A stretch of DNA of 64,000 nucleotides, from assembly GCA_963969365.1 (NCBI GenBank), contig OZ017760.1:1550001-1614000 (forward strand), written 5' to 3'. Numbering within the stretch: the first letter of the stretch is position 1; every line of letters starts with the position of its first letter. The translations under genes and the position numbers were made by a program. Source of the DNA: Asterochloris sp. CNOR1 (Eukaryota; Chlorophyta; Trebouxiophyceae; Trebouxiales; Trebouxiaceae). The notes under the pieces were generated by a model, which saw nothing but the letters and a program-made list of their open reading frames with translations, did not search any database and was not told the DNA's origin. Shown one piece after another: positions 3,808 to 12,516 of this stretch.

Positions 3808-4817
3808 CTGCTTATGACAGACTCACATACACTGGATTGTGTTGTATGGTTCAGTTTCAGGCATTTTGCCAGTTTGTACCATCTGTTCATTCCTGTCACT
3901 GCTCTGCAAGCAAAGCAGGATTTGTACCGAAAGCAACAACTGGAGTGGAATGTCTGCCTGTATCTCTGACAATCAGTGCCACTTGCTGAGGATTGCACCT
4001 GCCTTATCATCCGGCATTGCAATCCCTGGTCCATGTATGACCAGACACACGGCCACACTTGGGAACATACTGTAACATAGTCTCTTTCTAGCCTGGGACA
4101 GATGTCCCTGCGTGGGTGCAATTTGCCAGGTGGATCTAGAATGACTAAGTGCTCCGGTCTAGCAGCTTCTAGCTGTGCTCACCGCGTTTACTGCATCGAT
4201 GCAATATGGGCTTGCCAGAATTATGCATGCCAGATGCGAAAGCCCGGTCACTTTTGCTGTGGCAAACAGCATCAAAGTCTCTTGAGCAAGGAAGAGAAAG
4301 AGCCTGATTGCAGGGGTGCTGCAGACAGCAAGCAAGCTTCAGCTTGCATTACCACGTGACTGCGTACAGCAAGCACGGTTCATGACGCAAGCACACTTAC
4401 CCTTCGGGCAGCCATGCCATAGTTCCTCACAAACTGCAGGTCTGGTGGATATGGTCTTATCAGCAGCCCGCATCGCGGAAGCTGAAGGGGCGCCAAAATC
4501 CTGCAGGGCACCAAGCAACAGCTTCTGAGCACGTGCAGCAATCACCTAAGAGAGCCAGGCTCTTGCCGCCACACAAGCAGCATAAGGTCAGCTTCCCGCC
4601 GTTTCAGCTTTCGCCTTGACCTATAGTAAGCCATGTGACGCCCTGCAACATGGCTTGAAACTTCAAGGCCTGCTCCGCAGTAGAGCCTATTCATCGTGCT
4701 CATGCCCACCGGAATACTTCTTGATGAAAAGTTGAGGTTTCAAATGAAAAGTCAAAGAGCTCAGGACTGTGTGCCTACTTAGAGCTTTTTAGTCTCACCA
4801 TAGGTAAGCAGGCTAGA
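3808..4817. other. Intergenic, no gene seen
   Basis: About 1 kb between MON1 and the next ORF. It holds only short ORFs without recognisable motifs. The composition is less GC-rich than the flanking exons, and no exon with splice-consistent borders could be found. It presumably contains the MON1 3' UTR and the promoter of the 4818 gene. Confidence 0.5.
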
Positions 4818-5882
4818 ATGAAGTCTAAGCCAGGCAGTGGCAAGAGGCAAGAGCGCAACTTTGAGAATGTTGTCAACCACATCACCACCAATGAAGACCA
4901 GCTGCCTCAGGTCTCGCGGCAGAGCATGGCGGCTCTGAAGGATGTCTTTGGACACAACAGCAAGAAGTACTCAGGCCCTCTTCACCACAAGTCCGGCAAC
5001 CACCATGTACATGTCCTTGTGATGTCTGAGGCTCCTAAGACCAAGAGCGCTGTCAAAGCCAGTATTGCTGCCTCCATGGCACTCATCTTTGGCACACAGA
5101 CTGACTCTGTGGAAGTGAAGTTGTTCAATGAGTTGAAAGCAGATGCTGGACCAGCTCACAGCCTGAAGGGGCTTGGCGACTACAGGTCGCTGTATGTGAA
5201 CAATAACGACCATGAGAATCACCGCCCAAAGCATCCTGAGCACAGGACAGTGGAGTTCATGTGTGGTGGAGATTGGGAAATTTCACATGGAGGTGCCAGG
5301 AATAGTGCTGGACGACAAGGGCCAGTGCAAGTGGCAATAGCGGCCATCAGGGCAGGGACTCCAGAGTTGCAGTGCAAAAACTATGAGGATTTCCAGCGTC
5401 TGCTGGAAGCCGCCGCGAAGAGTGAGGGTTGCACCATATATACCTTGCCGAAGGTACCGGGTTTCTTCATTACTGTGCCCAAGCGCGTGGAGGGTGACTT
5501 CGTCCCCAACCCTGCCTATGATGAGGAGGAGTTCCAGGCCCTACCCAAACAGGAGCAAACCAGCAAGCGGAAGCGCACCATGAAGTATATGCAGGGGCCA
5601 GACGGGCTAAGCCTGAGGGAGGAGGTGGTGGTCAAGCACAACTTTCTGGAGGGACACCCTCCTGATTTTTACAGATTCAGGCTCCTTGAGCCGATCAGGA
5701 AGTTGCAGTCTAACAGGATGCTCACAGTTCCCAAGTTGAAGCAGCTCTACGAGGAGGCATTCATCGATCTGTTCAAGGACTACCCACCTCCTGGAGGGAC
5801 GTCTGGTCGTGCGCCAGCAAGGGCATGTGTCAGTTACAATCTGCCAGCAGCAGTTATTGCTGATGTGATGAAGGCCAGATGA
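4818..5882 (+). CDS. Unknown intronless protein, 354 aa
   Basis: A single uninterrupted ATG-to-TGA frame, exceptional in this window where nearly all genes are cut into short exons. The protein is polar and basic, starting MKSKPGSGKRQERNFENVV. It contains HKSGNHHVHVLV near residue 57, GGARNSAGRQGPVQVAIAAI near 160, KVPGFFITVPKR near 212 and a KRKRTMKYMQG basic patch near 250. No signal peptide or membrane segment is evident. I recognise no family. Lack of introns and its position convergent to a recombinase gene suggest it may be cargo of a mobile element or a retrocopy, but that is inference. Confidence 0.6.
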   Translation: MKSKPGSGKRQERNFENVVNHITTNEDQLPQVSRQSMAALKDVFGHNSKKYSGPLHHKSGNHHVHVLVMSEAPKTKSAVKASIAASMALIFGTQTDSVEVKLFNELKADAGPAHSLKGLGDYRSLYVNNNDHENHRPKHPEHRTVEFMCGGDWEISHGGARNSAGRQGPVQVAIAAIRAGTPELQCKNYEDFQRLLEAAAKSEGCTIYTLPKVPGFFITVPKRVEGDFVPNPAYDEEEFQALPKQEQTSKRKRTMKYMQGPDGLSLREEVVVKHNFLEGHPPDFYRFRLLEPIRKLQSNRMLTVPKLKQLYEEAFIDLFKDYPPPGGTSGRAPARACVSYNLPAAVIADVMKAR

Positions 5883-6444
5883 TGCAAGCTTGTTTACAAG
5901 ATCATGACTTGTCTGAATCACCATGCCACAGCACAGGTGTGGAAGGTGCGTCCACGTACCACACCGTATGACTTTGTAACAGATGCACAGATTGCGCGAG
6001 TGCAGCCCTTTTCAAGGGCCCAGGAGGTCCTCTTGTGCCACCAGGGATTCAAGTGTAGATGCTGCCAGGTCCAAAAAGCCACCACATGTGTTGGTCAGGC
6101 CAGCTCCCTCTGAGTAATACCTTCAAGTGTAGTTCAAGTGTAGTGGAACCTTTGTTGTGCAGTGGCAAGCCAAAAGTGATTGATTGGCCCAGAGAAAAGG
6201 GTTACGCGGACATGCAGATCTTCCGTTCATGTAGACCAAGAGTGTTTCAAGTGCAGCCTGTTGGGGGGGCAAGCCTGCAGGCTTGCCCCCTTGCATGAGA
6301 TCTGATTTTGTGGAGTGAAATCTGACTTTCTGAGTGAAATGTTACACTGCTCAGTGAAATATGACTTTCAGCAGAGAAATGTACCTGTGCAGGTAGTTGG
6401 CGGTAGGAATTTCGATTTAGATCAGCAAACAATCAAAGGCTTGC
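5883..6444. other. Gap between two convergent genes, with short repeats
   Basis: No coding exon is seen. It contains repeated TTCAAGTGTAG-like words (6048-6140), the perfect palindrome described separately, and a short irregular array of AGTGAAATnTGACTTTC-like units (about 6315-6395). These are candidates for the 3' processing region of both genes or for one end of a mobile element. Confidence 0.5.
6265..6290. repeat. Perfect 26-bp palindrome
   Basis: Arms GGGGGCAAGCCTG/CAGGCTTGCCCCC meet with no spacer. It lies between the stop codons of two convergent genes. It could form a hairpin in either transcript and act as a bidirectional terminator or 3'-end signal, or mark an element boundary. Confidence 0.85.
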
Positions 6445-9415
6445 TCAGCTGCTCTGCTTACGCTTGCCAAGCAGCTTGGAATCACTGCTGTACCTGCTGC
6501 ATAGCTGCTGCAGTGAGCTGACTGTCCTGGTGGCGGAAATTCGCTCACGTTCCATTTCTAAAGCCACGACCACAGCAGCCATGGTGCTTCCCAAGGCCAC
6601 CATGCGGTTCCTGACCTCAGCAGCAATGCCTTTTTTGAATCTTGAGAAGGCCATGCTGCTGGCCCTTGCTTCTTTCTTGCTGCCATGCCACCTGCGGAGG
6701 TCTGAAGGCACCGCTGAGATCTTGAAGAACGCCTCAAATGCTTCTGGGACTGTCTGGAAATCTGAGAGCTTCCACACCTGCAGTTCACAAGGCGACAAGG
6801 TCTGACCAGTACACAGGCGCTCAAGCTGAAAGGCAATTGACTGCATACCTGTTTCTCGACCAAAAAGGAGTCCCTCCCATCCCCGGGGCTCAGCGCACTG
6901 AGGGCCTGAGGCGGCAGAGTAACGCCATAGCTGGCCATTGAAGCCAGAGGCACCCACGGCATGGGGTTGGCGGATGCTGGAGGCTGAACACTGGAAAGAG
7001 GCACCTGGGGCAGCATCACCACAGGGGCAACTGGCATAGGCGTGGCCTCCTTTCCACTTAGCGTCTTGAAGAAAGCCTGCGATATGGCAGGGGAAAGGGT
7101 CAGAGCATGGTTGATATAGATCTGGACACCTCAAGGCCACAGCGCTCACCATTGGGTTGGTGAAAAACTCATTTTTGTCTTTGAGAATCCCCTCAGCGGC
7201 AATGTGTTTGTCCCATGTCTCTTGCCGCAGCTGCTTGCCTACAGCGCTCTGCAGAAGGCGACTGGCTGCTGGCGGGATGGTGCGGAGCCACTGGTCCCCA
7301 TATGACTGAATTCTCAAGCTGGCGTTCTGCACAAACACCTGCCGCAGGTGGTCGATGGCGCGTAAGGGCGCCAGCAAAGGATGTGCAGGGTGGCATCGCA
7401 CGCCAGCTTTGGCGCAGGAGCACTGTCAAGCCCGGGATGATGCGATCCAGCACATCCTCCTCAGCCTGCAGAACACAATCAGATCAGTCCCCCCATTCCC
7501 CAATTTTGGTGATTTGCGTGAGAAGCACTGGCATGCATTGACCTTACCTTGAAATCAGCCTGACCCAAACGATGATTCTCCTTCCTGTCCCGTCCCCACC
7601 CAGCCAGCCTGTGGGCTGTGTCTGGGTCAAAGATGCAATACAGGTCTGTGGTGTCAGACTCATGCCTGCATGGCACAACACTGGTCAGCTGGAGATAATG
7701 TTGTTCAAAGTGCACAGCATGGCCTGAGTTGCCTACCTCGCCGCCATCTTGATCTCTGCTTTGTTGATGCCCACGCTCTTAGCTGCCTCCACACCATGCT
7801 TCTTGAACTTGTGGCTGACTTCGCCTTTGGCTGAGTATCCATCAAGCCTGCCACAGGGCACGCCTGCAGTTTAACAAGCAACAGATGTCATCAACATCTG
7901 TGTCCAAAAGCTGCAGCATCAATGCACTGGCTCACCAGCAAGTTCAAACGCCTGCCGAAGGTGAACGTTGAGGGTCTCCCCGCTCATGGGCTGGTTCCCC
8001 TGCATGCTAGGGGCAGCAACAATGAACTTGGCCAGATCCTCAAGTTTTGATGCCCCTGTGGAAGGTGGCCACAGCCAGGTCAGCAAGCGCTGCCTGAGGA
8101 CAGACGCGATGGCCTCGGTACCTGCGGCAGAAGAGGCATAATGACTGAGAACACCCTGCAGCGCGCTGCCCACCTGTGTCTGACAGCATGAATACGCATA
8201 CCTAACAACACCAGGAATATCCACCTGCCCTGGCTTCACAGTCTTCCCCTGCATGCTGCCAAAGAGAATTGCCACAGAGGGCGCTGGGCCCACACTGTCC
8301 TGCATCCGCAGTGCCAGGCAGCTCCAGGGAAGCTTGCGGAGGTCATCAGAGCGGCCTAATATGGCTGACATGAACGTCATTGCCATCCTCAGCAGAAAGG
8401 CCCACTGCCACTGCTTCTGCAGGAAGGCTGCCTGCAGGGACTGGCGAAGCTGCCCTGCGCTCGGTGCGGCATCCACCTGCAGATGCAAGCAACAAGCTGG
8501 TGTCAGACACGCCATCGCTCTGCTTGCACACTATGCTCTGACCAGGCCGATACCCACCTGAGCTGCCACTTGTGCATTGAGGTTCTCAGCCTGCATCTCC
8601 CTGCCACGTGCACGGACCAAGTCCCTAACTGCCTGGATCTCCAGAGGTGCAGGTACATCTGATGTGATGCGGCCCTGAGAGTACTGCTCCCTGCGGACTT
8701 CCTTGAGGTGGGATAGATAATCACAGGCCAAAGTTGGGGAAGGCAGGATATGAGCGCAGCTCAGACACAGCAGTGGAGTGGCCTCTCACCCCACGCTGCT
8801 GAACGAGTAGCGAGCCCCATTCTGCTGCACTGCCTCATCCACAAGCCACATTGAGAACTCAAGAATCTTGGCCTGAGACATGAGGTCGCCATCAGGGTAC
8901 CGGTGCGCCTCCTGCTCACAGTATCTCTGCAGGACCACATGTGGATCAGTGACATGGCCTTGGAAGCCTCAAGTGCGGCTCAAGAACAGGTGTAAAGGCC
9001 ATGCGGTGCCTACCTTCCAGAGCTTGGCAGCAGACTTTTCAGCCTGGACTGTGTTCTGTGGCTTGGCCGCAGCATGACGCGCATTGATCTCCTGGGTGAT
9101 GCGTAGGATTCGAGCTTTCTCCTCAGGCATGTCAGGCATGGCTGCTGCCAAGCCGACTGCTGTTTCTGAGGCTGGTGCTCCATTCTGCTGGCCCCAAGTC
9201 TCTAAACTGTGCACACCAGCCAGCACCGGCTGGAGATCATCCACCAGTCCAGACAGGTGTCTGCAGGCTTGATCAATGGCTGCTCTGAGGGAAGGTGGGC
9301 TGTTTGGGGAGCAGCTGGCACGCAGTTGTGCCATGTAGTCCTCAGCCAGCCCCAGGCTGATGACATGGTTGATGTAGCTGCTGTACTCAGCAGATGGTAC
9401 CTGATAGTGTTGCAT
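6445..9415 (-). CDS. Crypton-like tyrosine recombinase with GCR1_C-like tail, possibly degenerate
   Basis: Exons on the minus strand join in phase: 9415-9014, 8926-8790, 8690-8558, 8476-7936 (with a likely 102-bp in-frame intron at about 8201-8103), 7863-7737, 7665-7548, then 7465-7150, 7076-6849 and 6825-6445. The central part has the layout of Crypton/DUF3504 recombinases: GRSDDLRKLPW (first Arg), a beta hairpin with GKTVKPGQVDIPG (Lys), SHKFKKHGVEAAKS (family HxxR, here HxxK), a candidate Tyr in DLYCIFDPD, and the post-domain PLRAIDHLRQVFVQNASL. The last exon has WKLSDFQTV...DLRRWHGSKKEARASSMAF, resembling the GCR1_C DNA-binding domain that ends many Crypton proteins. A frame change is needed near 7375-7400, and the HxxR Arg is replaced, so the copy may be inactive. 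First in-frame ATG is 9415; earlier alternatives are not excluded. Family call is by motif layout only. Confidence 0.62.
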
Positions 9416-9557
9416 GAGGATGGATCTGGTTTGGCGCGCTAGGATTATTTGACCTAGCAATTAGGTCGGGAGGGCCACCCTCTTGGTGACTGTAGAGCTC
9501 TGCACTTCATGTCTGAGCGTGCTAAACCCTGTGTTTAAGAGAGCTCTGCTGGAGAAC
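9416..9557. promoter_or_regulatory. Shared promoter of divergent recombinase and nuclease-kinase genes
   Basis: Only 142 bp separate the two ATGs (9415 minus, 9558 plus), so both genes must share regulatory DNA or overlap in their 5' UTRs. A TAGGATTATTTGACC stretch near 9439-9453 is the only AT-richer part. No clear TATA box is seen. Confidence 0.45.
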
Positions 9558-11766
9558 ATGGTGGAGGACACAAAGCTGGCCTGCGATGCTCTTCTTGAGC
9601 TGGAAGGGGAGGACTGGGGAGACACTGCACTGGGAATGCTCTACAGCCCAATCCATGGTGCTCGTCTGCAGCAGCTGGTCCTGGACCTTCGCGGCACTGC
9701 TAAACTGGCTGGAGCAGTAAGGACATTTGTTTACCAGAATCAAGGTGTGTAGCTGTATCCCTGAATGCTGGCTTCAAGCTGACATGTGCCATGCTGGAGC
9801 AATGTGGTGGGCTGACCACACAGCTGGAACTATCTGCTTTGTAGACAAGGTTACTGCGCGAGGCCTCATGCGGCTGCCCCTGCCACAACTGACAGCCCGC
9901 CTCAGCCCCCGCAGCTCCCACAGCCAGACCAGGCCTCGGTATGCCAGGACCTTTTCAGATGTTCTCCTGTGGGACAGCTTCAGCCAGGGTGCAAGTCAGC
10001 TGCTGCTCAGCCTGGATGATCAGGCCGCCAGACACAGCATTCCCAGCATCAGCTGCGAGAGCCCACTGAGCCCACTCAAGCCAGCCTCAGACGAGGCAGA
10101 GGTCAGGGCGCATGTCACTAACCTCACACACTCTGTGAATGAGATAGCAGCACGCATTGGCATCTCAGCAGAATGTGTGGGGGGTGGCAGTGGCCGCAGC
10201 AGCTCATTCACTGACCTAGTGGTGCGCCAAACAGGGCTGGCAAGCGATCCCCAGCACCTTAGCGCCATCATCTGGGGCGTGGGGGAGGTGAAGGGCGATT
10301 GGCAGCTCAGCATCAAGCGCGGTCTGGAGCTCTTCGATGCAATGCGCAGTGAGGCAGAGCTTGGTGGCTTCCTGCCAGGCCTCCAGCAGGTAGCTCATGG
10401 GCATCTGCTGCTTTAGATACACTTCTTGACAACCCAAATTCTATGTACAGAAGGCCCCTTTTATGCTCTGCCTGTGCAAACTGCGTGTCTATCTATATCA
10501 CTCGATGCGCTTCAATGGCCTTCAGGTGTATGGGGATGGAGTCATGGATGAGGCCCCGCTGCTCATCCTGACCAACTACCACGTCACATTCTTTCTGAGA
10601 CGCAGCGCAACTGTCGTTGACAAGCGCCTGTGGGCGTCACCAGCAGTCTGGTGGAACCAGACAGAGCCTCCACCACGCGTCTGCTGGCTATATGCCCTGC
10701 AGCAAGCAGAACAGCTTCGGCAGCTGAAGGCCTCGCTGCTGCGGGTGGCTGTGCCTTACACCCTGATGGGACACCCTCTGCCACAGCGGGGGCACCCTCC
10801 GCCACTGCGGGCAGACAGTGATGAGGAGACACAATCGACCTCACCTTCCAGAGCTAGCAAGAGGCGGCGCACTGCTGCCCAGCAAGCTGCTCAGCAAGTC
10901 ATCGTGCTGAATGCTCACAGTACCTCTGGCAAGGGCTATGAGAAGCACAGCCTGGCTGCTGAGCTGCACGCGCCAGCAACAGGAGGAGTCCACCCCCTTA
11001 ATGAGCCTGCTCTGCCAGACAGCTTGGCGATGGAGCCTGTGCTGGGGTTGGACACCTTGGCACTCTCAGACACCCTGCTTGGGGCGGGGCGTTATGGGCA
11101 AGTTCTTCAGGTAAGCATCCTAACAGGTGTCATGGCCAAGCCACAGGCTTGCATGCAACCATGCTGCAGCTTGTGCTCATGTATGACCATGTGGTCATGC
11201 CATGGCCTTGCAGCTTTCTGCGGCCTGGCAGTGCCATTGCTGCAGGCAGGACTTGACTGTAGCGCCTGAAGTGGATGCTACATTGATGCAGCCTTGCTCA
11301 TGCAGTCATGTGCTTGTAGGGCCACTACCATGGAGAGCATGTCGCGGTGAAATTGTATGACCTGGAGCGACGTGGAGCTGCAGAAGCCTTCAGAGTTGAG
11401 AAGGCTGCCTATGGCGCTCTGGAGGCCCTACAGGGGTTGGTGCTACCACGACTGCTCAAGATAGGCATCCTTGCCCATGTCGGCCTGCCAGCGGTAGTGA
11501 CATCCATTGGTGGCCAGCCACTGAAGGACAGGCTGACAAGGTCTCGCCGGGTCCCGCAGGAATTGCGCCGTCCTCTCAAAGCAGCCCTTCAACAGCTGCA
11601 CAAAGCTGGTGTGGCTCATGGCGATGTGGGCATCTCAAACATTCTTGTAGGAGACAACAATGCTGTCTGCCTCATTGATCTTGGGTCAGCTATGATCAAC
11701 GCTGATCAGGATGTCATGGCACAGGACCTGAAGCGTGCTGCAGGCCTGTTTGATATAGACCACTGA
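9558..11766 (+). CDS. Endonuclease-like (PD-(D/E)XK) plus protein-kinase fusion
   Basis: Four exons joined by phase-0 introns: 9558-9716, about 9850-10389, 10526-11110 and 11320-11766 (start of exon 2 uncertain). Exon 2 holds a long N-terminal region ending in SAIIWGVGEVKGDWQLSI, a hydrophobic strand followed by E-x-K as in restriction-endonuclease-fold nucleases. After a Ser/Arg/Lys-rich linker (SRASKRRRTAAQQAAQQ) comes a compact kinase domain: LLGAGRYGQVLQ (glycine loop), HVAVKLYDL (ATP Lys), VAHGDVGISNILVGDN (catalytic Asp and Asn) and CLIDLGSAM (DLG in place of DFG). All key kinase residues are present. REase-kinase fusions of this kind are known among Crinkler/CR-type effectors and transposon-derived genes of fungi and oomycetes. 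Divergent pairing with a recombinase suggests an element-borne gene. The nuclease assignment is weaker than the kinase one. Confidence 0.66.
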
Positions 11767-12332
11767 GGCAGCACCCCGAGCTGTAATTTGACCGTGATGT
11801 AAATAAGTGTATTCATCTCAGCTGCGCAAAGGTTGCCATGCTCAGGCCCTTCCTGCTTGAAGTTGTGAGCATTCTGATGAAGAAGCATGAGCACTGCATG
11901 CTGGCTGCTGGTGGTGAGCCTGTCTGGAACAGTGTAGCAGTAGTGCTACACCTGGCTGGGCTATGCACACCAGAGAGGCCTTCTTGTAAGATGCTTAAAT
12001 CAGCTGCATTTGCGCTGAAAGCATGTGTATGATTGCTGGGGCACAGCCAGACGGCTAGAGGGCGATGATGTCAGTGTTGCAGTTACCTGTGACCATGCAA
12101 GACGTTGTTTACATGCACACCAGTCGCACTGCCTGCCACTGCGCAATGACAGGAGTGTATGCCAGCGTGAGCACCAGCAGGTTGGAAGTCATGCCTGAGC
12201 CAATCGGAACCTCAAAGCTGCCCAAGGCATGCAGCAACTCCACTCCTCCGGTGTTGCCCTTGGCTGAGTCGCATGCTGTAATGGCAAGTTGTTCTTGTGT
12301 TCATGATGAGCGGCAGCAGCTCGAGGGTACAA
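11767..12332. other. Intergenic, no gene seen
   Basis: Short ORFs only, none with motifs or splice-consistent neighbours. It probably carries the 3' UTR of the kinase gene. Confidence 0.45.
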
Positions 12333-12516
12333 TGCAGGGTGTCACATGACATGTAATATGGTGACAGGTTGCAGGGTGTCACATAGAATGTGATGTATTG
12401 ACAGGTCACAGAGTGTTACATGGCCTGTGATAATATGACAGGTTGCGGGGTGTCACATAGCATGTGATATAGTGACAGGTTGCGGGGTGTCACATAGCAT
12501 GTGATATGGTGACCTA
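12333..12516. repeat. Tandem repeat, about 37-bp unit, five copies
   Basis: The consensus is near GTGTCACATAGCATGTGATA followed by TRGTGACAGGTTGCGGG. The last two copies are almost identical and the first three diverged. Each unit carries the imperfect palindrome CACAT-NNN-ATGTG (core like CACATAGCATGTG). It sits between the nuclease-kinase gene and the next gene, at the likely right edge of the mobile island. Confidence 0.85.

Follow-up and report, generated by a model that had tools for sequence, protein, structure and literature searches.

The window analysed here (C15:1550001-1614000), a 64,000-nucleotide stretch of DNA, holds at positions 4618-12516 a copy of a repeated mobile element of the nuclear genome, probably Crypton-like, with a relaxase-like partner gene (ORF1) and a modular nuclease payload resembling Crinkler-RHS (CR) proteins. 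The element has defined ends marked by inverted arms and by direct repeats of 6 bp, a recurring gene order, many copies in the genome searched (56.4 Mb, 21 contigs) and a right-hand gene that is swapped between copies. Header-plus-nuclease genes of the CR build are here tied to a mobile element with defined ends and many copies, in a host assigned as a photosynthetic eukaryote because its genome has Photosystem II genes on contig C21, with a further fragment on C2, and light-harvesting matches on several other contigs; its placement as a green alga is that of the original prediction. A recombinase-like and a relaxase-like gene stand together in one nuclear element. For this combination, as for the tie between CR-type genes and such an element, no description was found in the open-licence papers searched; neither was a Crypton-like green-algal element with nuclease cargo or a relaxase-like gene found there. 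The proposed transposon origin of Crinkler-like toxin genes becomes testable inside one genome, because CR-type genes sit in a defined many-copy element with some near-identical copies, and a swappable toxin-like nuclease gene offers a chance to follow how such genes travel. Features are given in window coordinates.

4618-12516, + strand: complete element of 7,899 bp, both terminal cores included
4618-4623, + strand: left 6-bp core GACCTA, direct repeat
4630-4649, + strand: left inverted arm, GCCATGTGACGCCCTGCAAC
4818-5882, + strand: ORF1, intronless, 354 amino acids, with relaxase-like HUH motif
6265-6290, no strand: 26-bp palindrome, read from the sequence, between the convergent ORF1 and recombinase-like gene
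6445-9415, - strand: recombinase-like gene, ten exons (9415-9014, 8926-8790, 8723-8558, 8476-8202, 8121-7936, 7863-7737, 7665-7548, 7465-7150, 7076-6849, 6777-6445), broken in this copy
9451-9467, no strand: hairpin GACCTA-GCAAT-TAGGTC, the core in both directions
9558-11766, + strand: cargo gene, 587 amino acids, open, four exons (header 9558-9744; restriction-endonuclease (REase)-like part and truncated kinase 9845-10389, 10526-11110, 11320-11766)
12333-12513, + strand: 37-bp tandem array, 4.9 units, right end of the element; the unit contains the left-end sequence inverted
12511-12516, + strand: right 6-bp core GACCTA, read from the sequence of the ends

Ends and extent of the element

The recombinase-like gene (ATG at 9415, - strand) and the REase-kinase gene (ATG at 9558, + strand) form a divergent pair with 142 bp between the start codons, as the original prediction had described them in assigning both to one mobile element of extent 6445-11766. 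The shared element holds, since direct repeats and inverted arms enclose both genes, the flanks are single-copy and the pair recurs on contig C8; the extent is larger and runs from 4618 to 12516. The 26-bp palindrome on one side and the 37-bp tandem repeat on the other, recorded earlier as flanking features, are both present and lie within these limits. At the left, GACCTA was exact at 13 of the 18 left ends read, and the end fell at 4617-4619 in 8 of 20 fetched 10-kb loci. The 20-bp inverted arms match each other inversely at 17/20 positions, a level reached by 0/300 random window pairs, and the 400 bp outside each end are single-copy in the genome. By eye, no target-site duplication was seen beyond the GACCTA core.

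The array motif occurs 74 times in the genome (reversed control, 0). On the same strand it follows 21/40 recombinase copies within 16 kb downstream (opposite strand, 0/40) and 32/58 ORF1 places within 20 kb (opposite strand, 3/58); conversely, 36 of 66 arrays have ORF1 or recombinase upstream on their own strand within 20 kb, and 7 have one on the other strand. The recombinase places are the 40 that were scored out of 98 candidates, and the 58 ORF1 places were hand-picked from 129 match rows, leaving aside every C8 row as well as short fragments and second pieces. Right-end pieces were fetched for seven copies. Both ends were readable with a core in six copies including the window, of which five carry GACCTA twice and one carries CACCTA and GACCTA; as to the remaining right ends, the array of L017 (L045) runs into another repeat and that of L036 reads GACATA. 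The left end of L019 directly abuts the right array of another element, with a single core common to both. Only about 30 nt separate the array of the L016 element from sequence of the first recombinase exon (L047), and the right end therefore belongs to the recombinase side, whether cargo is present or not.

A candidate end at 9473, taken at first from the point at which homology between copies stops, was rejected on the right-end motif and the cores. On that reading the insertion would merely adjoin the REase-kinase gene, an ordinary gene of the host, and the 37-bp array would be an independent satellite. It draws on the finding that DNA homology between copies ends just past the hairpin and never crosses 9480 as one block: the match of the 20 loci to the window stops at 9464-9480 in 14 and at 9417-9440 in the other six, L030 being the only locus with a separate 200-nt match further right (the cargo header exon). 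The kinase exon, moreover, occurs at only three places in the genome, one of them (C8 copy B) without the element. Opposed to it are the right-end motif and cores, the element context of the header and REase families (see below), C8 copy A and L047, and we regard it as very unlikely. The REase-kinase gene is placed inside the element because the right-end motif, cores, arms and single-copy flanks put the ends at 4618 and 12516.

Distances from ORF1 to the right end suggest element sizes of about 7 to 17 kb. Near-identical copies exist, L021 and L022 being 99% identical over 3.4 kb left of the recombinase. Six of the 20 loci at first appeared to have no ORF1; a class of short recombinase-only copies was nevertheless rejected on L022, the one followed further left, which has ORF1 4.1 kb further left with other genes between. 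A palindrome comparable to that at 6265-6290 is present in L040 (the L022 element), where the left cargo starts to its right. Other DNA lies between recombinase and left end in L020-L022, L024, L028 and L030, with blocks of about 268 nt repeated within it, and L031, L032, L033 and L035 have about 1.1 kb of extra DNA between left end and ORF1 relative to the window copy. Elements are interrupted at the recombinase end in L025, L029, L030 and L034 by another repeat (96-99.6% identical, about 515 nt, starting in GATGATGATTTAAATTTAAAGTCCG), a diverged relative of which cuts the array in L045; this is probably a young, separate transposable element.

Cargo genes

The gene to the right of the recombinase differs from copy to copy, and a cargo role, one of those proposed originally, is supported by this swapping and by the header and REase families being found in element context. 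Element context was defined by same-strand neighbours, either ORF1 or recombinase no more than 13 kb upstream or the array motif no more than 8 kb downstream, and makes up 1.15% of the strand-specific genome (the expected share). The 62-amino-acid header exon recurs at 12 other places, 11/12 in element context. A nuclease (REase) family with the motif RPD...GEDK occurs at 13 places, 9/13 in element context, a count that includes the query's own locus and to which copies of a single left-cargo gene contribute three. Both C8 kinase bodies score 0/2 because the C8 ORF1 rows had been dropped; ORF1 and recombinase do adjoin one of them. On contig C9 an RPD...GEDK nuclease (661167) is found 1.5 kb from the header (659693), both on one strand, and an REase-type gene is present in the L022 left cargo. 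A scan with a nuclease motif pattern, which misses the window's own nuclease motif and that of L033/L034 (the latter seen by eye), matched 5/20 loci and none in 51 kb of window control. The L024 cargo gave HSDR_N at E 0.012, which is below cut-off and supports the nuclease reading.

In the window copy the Pfam scan of the cargo protein returned kinase families only. The kinase domain had been called complete; the Pkinase match (E 1.1e-7) covers only profile positions 5-147 of 263. The E-x-K endonuclease-like region claimed for the same protein is borne out by the C8 paralogues, both of which keep the nuclease-like residues FTD...GEVK as well as the kinase motifs, with HSD in place of HGD in one of them, and themselves contain stop codons. 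A search of the same genome for the conserved gene pair, proposed with the original prediction, gave one further instance: in C8 copy A the kinase adjoins ORF1 and recombinase in the same order, with 70% identity in the kinase region and 75-87% in the element pieces; the second C8 kinase (copy B) stands outside this arrangement. In L035 the cargo slot is occupied, about 1.4-3.5 kb beyond the recombinase end on the right, by a 714-amino-acid open frame that by eye resembles an endonuclease joined to a reverse transcriptase of non-long-terminal-repeat type; it is probably a nested insertion.

Recombinase-like gene

A 1-kb piece of the recombinase-like gene matched the 40 scored genome places at 87-100% identity. 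In an 18-copy alignment ten exons were found with GT and AG sites kept, and after a first choice of exon-4 donor had been replaced by one that leaves three copies open, L020, L022 and L035 had every splice site intact and were open across 762-765 codons. The window gene, formerly treated as intact, lacks the intron-2 acceptor of the open copies and differs from them by frame-changing lengths in exons 5 and 8; judged from these lesions, the window copy is predicted to be unable to make its recombinase as it stands, while the cargo gene stays open. The ratio of nonsynonymous to synonymous substitution rates (dN/dS) between subfamilies was 0.21-0.24 for the recombinase and 0.24-0.44 for ORF1 (close pairs in this comparison, 0.15-0.72). 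By eye, the motifs GRSDDLR, GKT, SHKFK and DLY follow one another in the recombinase-like sequence, an order that we take to fit the catalytic pattern of tyrosine recombinases except that the second arginine is a lysine.

ORF1

ORF1, transcribed convergently with the recombinase-like gene (+ versus - strand), was correctly placed and described as intronless before; listed then as an unknown gene, it proves to be a core gene of the element with a relaxase-like motif that was overlooked. It gave 129 match rows in the genome, compared with three places for the kinase exon. In 12/12 aligned copies H57, H63, H65 and Y126 are invariant, and H56 is kept in 11/12. Weak profile matches to MobL (E 0.038) and MobP2 (E 0.075) fall over one stretch of the protein. 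A tblastn search against 72,556 plasmid records gave ten matches at E up to 10 (best 0.8); among the eight matches listed, six are annotated as MobP2 relaxases, one is an unannotated stretch and one a hypothetical protein. The plasmid match block aligns IHYNTGNIHIH with LHHKSGNHHVH, which is presumably the three-histidine motif of relaxases. Of two sequence searches of the PDB made for the element's proteins, one returned a single chance-level match and the other none. On its sequence ORF1 is likely to be an HUH protein.

These features bear on the possibility that the element is Replitron-like, in which case ORF1, as HUH endonuclease, would be the transposase acting through a single-stranded or rolling-circle step, and the recombinase-like and nuclease genes would be passengers. 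This alternative is kept because Replitrons also have short direct terminal repeats: as described in the part of PMC10741241 drawn on here, they are HUH elements that occur in green algae and in some land plants and whose direct terminal repeats measure 5-11 bp (6 bp in the present element), and ORF1 has both the HUH-like motif and the relaxase matches. The same description gives them lengths of 0.9-4 kb and target-site duplications of 2-8 bp and states that they lack terminal inverted repeats, in contrast to the roughly 7-17 kb and inverted arms found here, and constraint on the recombinase-like gene is about as strong as that on ORF1, or stronger. On balance a Replitron-like origin is unlikely. 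The present elements are larger than Replitrons and differ in their inverted arms, recombinase-like gene and nuclease cargo, a separation drawn from the published description.

A remnant of a small integrated virus with an integrase (for example, polinton-like) would likewise account for a recombinase-like gene with repeated ends in an algal genome. Viral contigs held no relatives of ORF1 or the recombinase, no relatives of ORF1 were found in phages, and PHROGs searches gave no result. Pfam matches to capsid or polymerase were absent from the six cargo pieces scanned, which represent part of the cargo, and what the loci read contain is ORF1, recombinase and cargo of nuclease type. A viral remnant is highly improbable.

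Evidence weighing against the assignment

Several results count against a Crypton-like element with a relaxase-like partner and nuclease payload. For the recombinase, Pfam gives only NDC10_II, at E 0.011 (L022) and 0.029 (L035), both below the Pfam cut-off, and DUF3504, DUF3435 and GCR1_C gave no profile match in these two copies. The original assignment to a Crypton/DUF3504-like recombinase with a GCR1_C tail is supported in part by the weak NDC10_II match; DUF3504 and GCR1_C (the latter sought in the L022 and L035 tails) were absent in scans run at E up to 1 and up to 10, in which HMMER filters drop most matches above about 0.1. The NDC10_II domain derives from a Crypton, and the box-II arginine, which we assume to be needed in active enzymes, is lysine here. 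Cbf2 is named as Crypton-derived in the text of PMC3212892 drawn on. Recombinase searches against PDB sequences and PHROGs gave no match, and a PF16787 scan across the genome gave none either, nor did its controls.

For ORF1, MobL at E <1 was reached by 1/8 copies, and AlphaFold models were poor (predicted local distance difference test, pLDDT, 40 and 46). The fold searches with the pLDDT-46 model are uninformative; one of them placed HUH transposases at ranks 2, 16, 20 and 43, but with E 0.08-0.5 and TM-score of about 0.3. The exact right-end motif, with zero mismatches allowed, is missing in range for 19/40 recombinase copies and 26/58 ORF1 places, and under the same pattern 30/66 arrays are without ORF1 or recombinase upstream on their own strand. 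No empty site was found, the genome holding no second copy of either flank. As to the cargo, the kinase is without a C-lobe and the C8 paralogues likewise end soon after the DLG motif; in C8 copy A the array is reduced to one unit, which no GACCTA follows, and C8 copy B is a kinase with no element within 5 kb upstream.

Comparison with known systems and proposed mechanism

Cryptons resemble the present element in having a tyrosine-recombinase-like core gene with 5- or 6-bp terminal direct repeats (CryptonF and CryptonS) and, as far as the core was seen, no reverse transcriptase; some CryptonS carry one extra protein gene (a C48 peptidase), according to the portion of PMC3212892 used here. Terminal direct repeats of about 6 bp, which the same portion gives for CryptonF, were found as GACCTA at both ends in 5/6 copies; the GCR1_C DNA-binding tail of CryptonF was not detected in L022 or L035. 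The present element differs in its weak match to a Crypton-derived domain, without GCR1_C or DUF3504 matches, and in its inverted arms, 37-bp array, ORF1 and swappable nuclease cargo. The hosts listed in the part of PMC3212892 consulted are fungi, animals, oomycetes and a diatom, unlike the photosynthetic eukaryote here; a single DUF3504 gene from the mitochondrion of a green alga is also mentioned there.

CR proteins likewise consist of a header and a variable C-terminal part; REase joined to kinase makes up about one sixth of known CR C-termini, and a link to mobile elements has been proposed (PMC5289972, in the part drawn on). Joining of a header to varying C-terminal parts is seen here also, the header occurring at 12 other places and the kinase body at three. 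In contrast to CR proteins, the header is not a Ubl header by the tests made, a defined element carries the gene as its payload, and the kinase is truncated. The captain recombinase of Starships is a DUF3435 protein. These fungal elements, in the accounts drawn on here, share a recombinase-linked organisation with variable cargo; the present element has no DUF3435 profile match, is much smaller and is non-fungal.

In the Crypton-like element proposed here, the recombinase would bind the inverted arms and exchange strands in the GACCTA core, excision would yield a circle in which the two ends, once joined, make up a palindromic site with a single core inside it, and the circle would reinsert at a GACCTA-like site, as proposed for Cryptons. 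ORF1 might, with less support, nick and copy the excised DNA and so raise copy number. The payload would consist of a header and a variable nuclease part built like CR proteins, represented in the window by REase and truncated kinase; its most likely target is DNA, whether in defence against viruses and competing elements or in the role of a selfish toxin, a reading that is partly speculative. More speculatively, the hairpin at 9451-9467 might serve as a slot for cargo exchange.

Bacterial integrative mobilizable elements combine an integrase with a relaxase-like protein and variable toxin- or defence-like cargo. The present element could, tentatively and with rather low probability, be their eukaryotic counterpart, with excision by a tyrosine recombinase, nicking and copying by an HUH relaxase-like protein, and CR-type nuclease genes traded in slots marked by its own recombination core (hairpin 9451-9467). 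It differs from them in being nuclear, with intron-bearing genes. If this counterpart is real, the element would be a working source that assembles Crinkler-like toxin genes.

Other features of the window

A tRNA scan and an Rfam scan of the window returned nothing. An open frame at 44395-45213 matches CAP59_mtransfer (PF11735) at E 1.2e-14 and is probably an ordinary glycosyltransferase gene.

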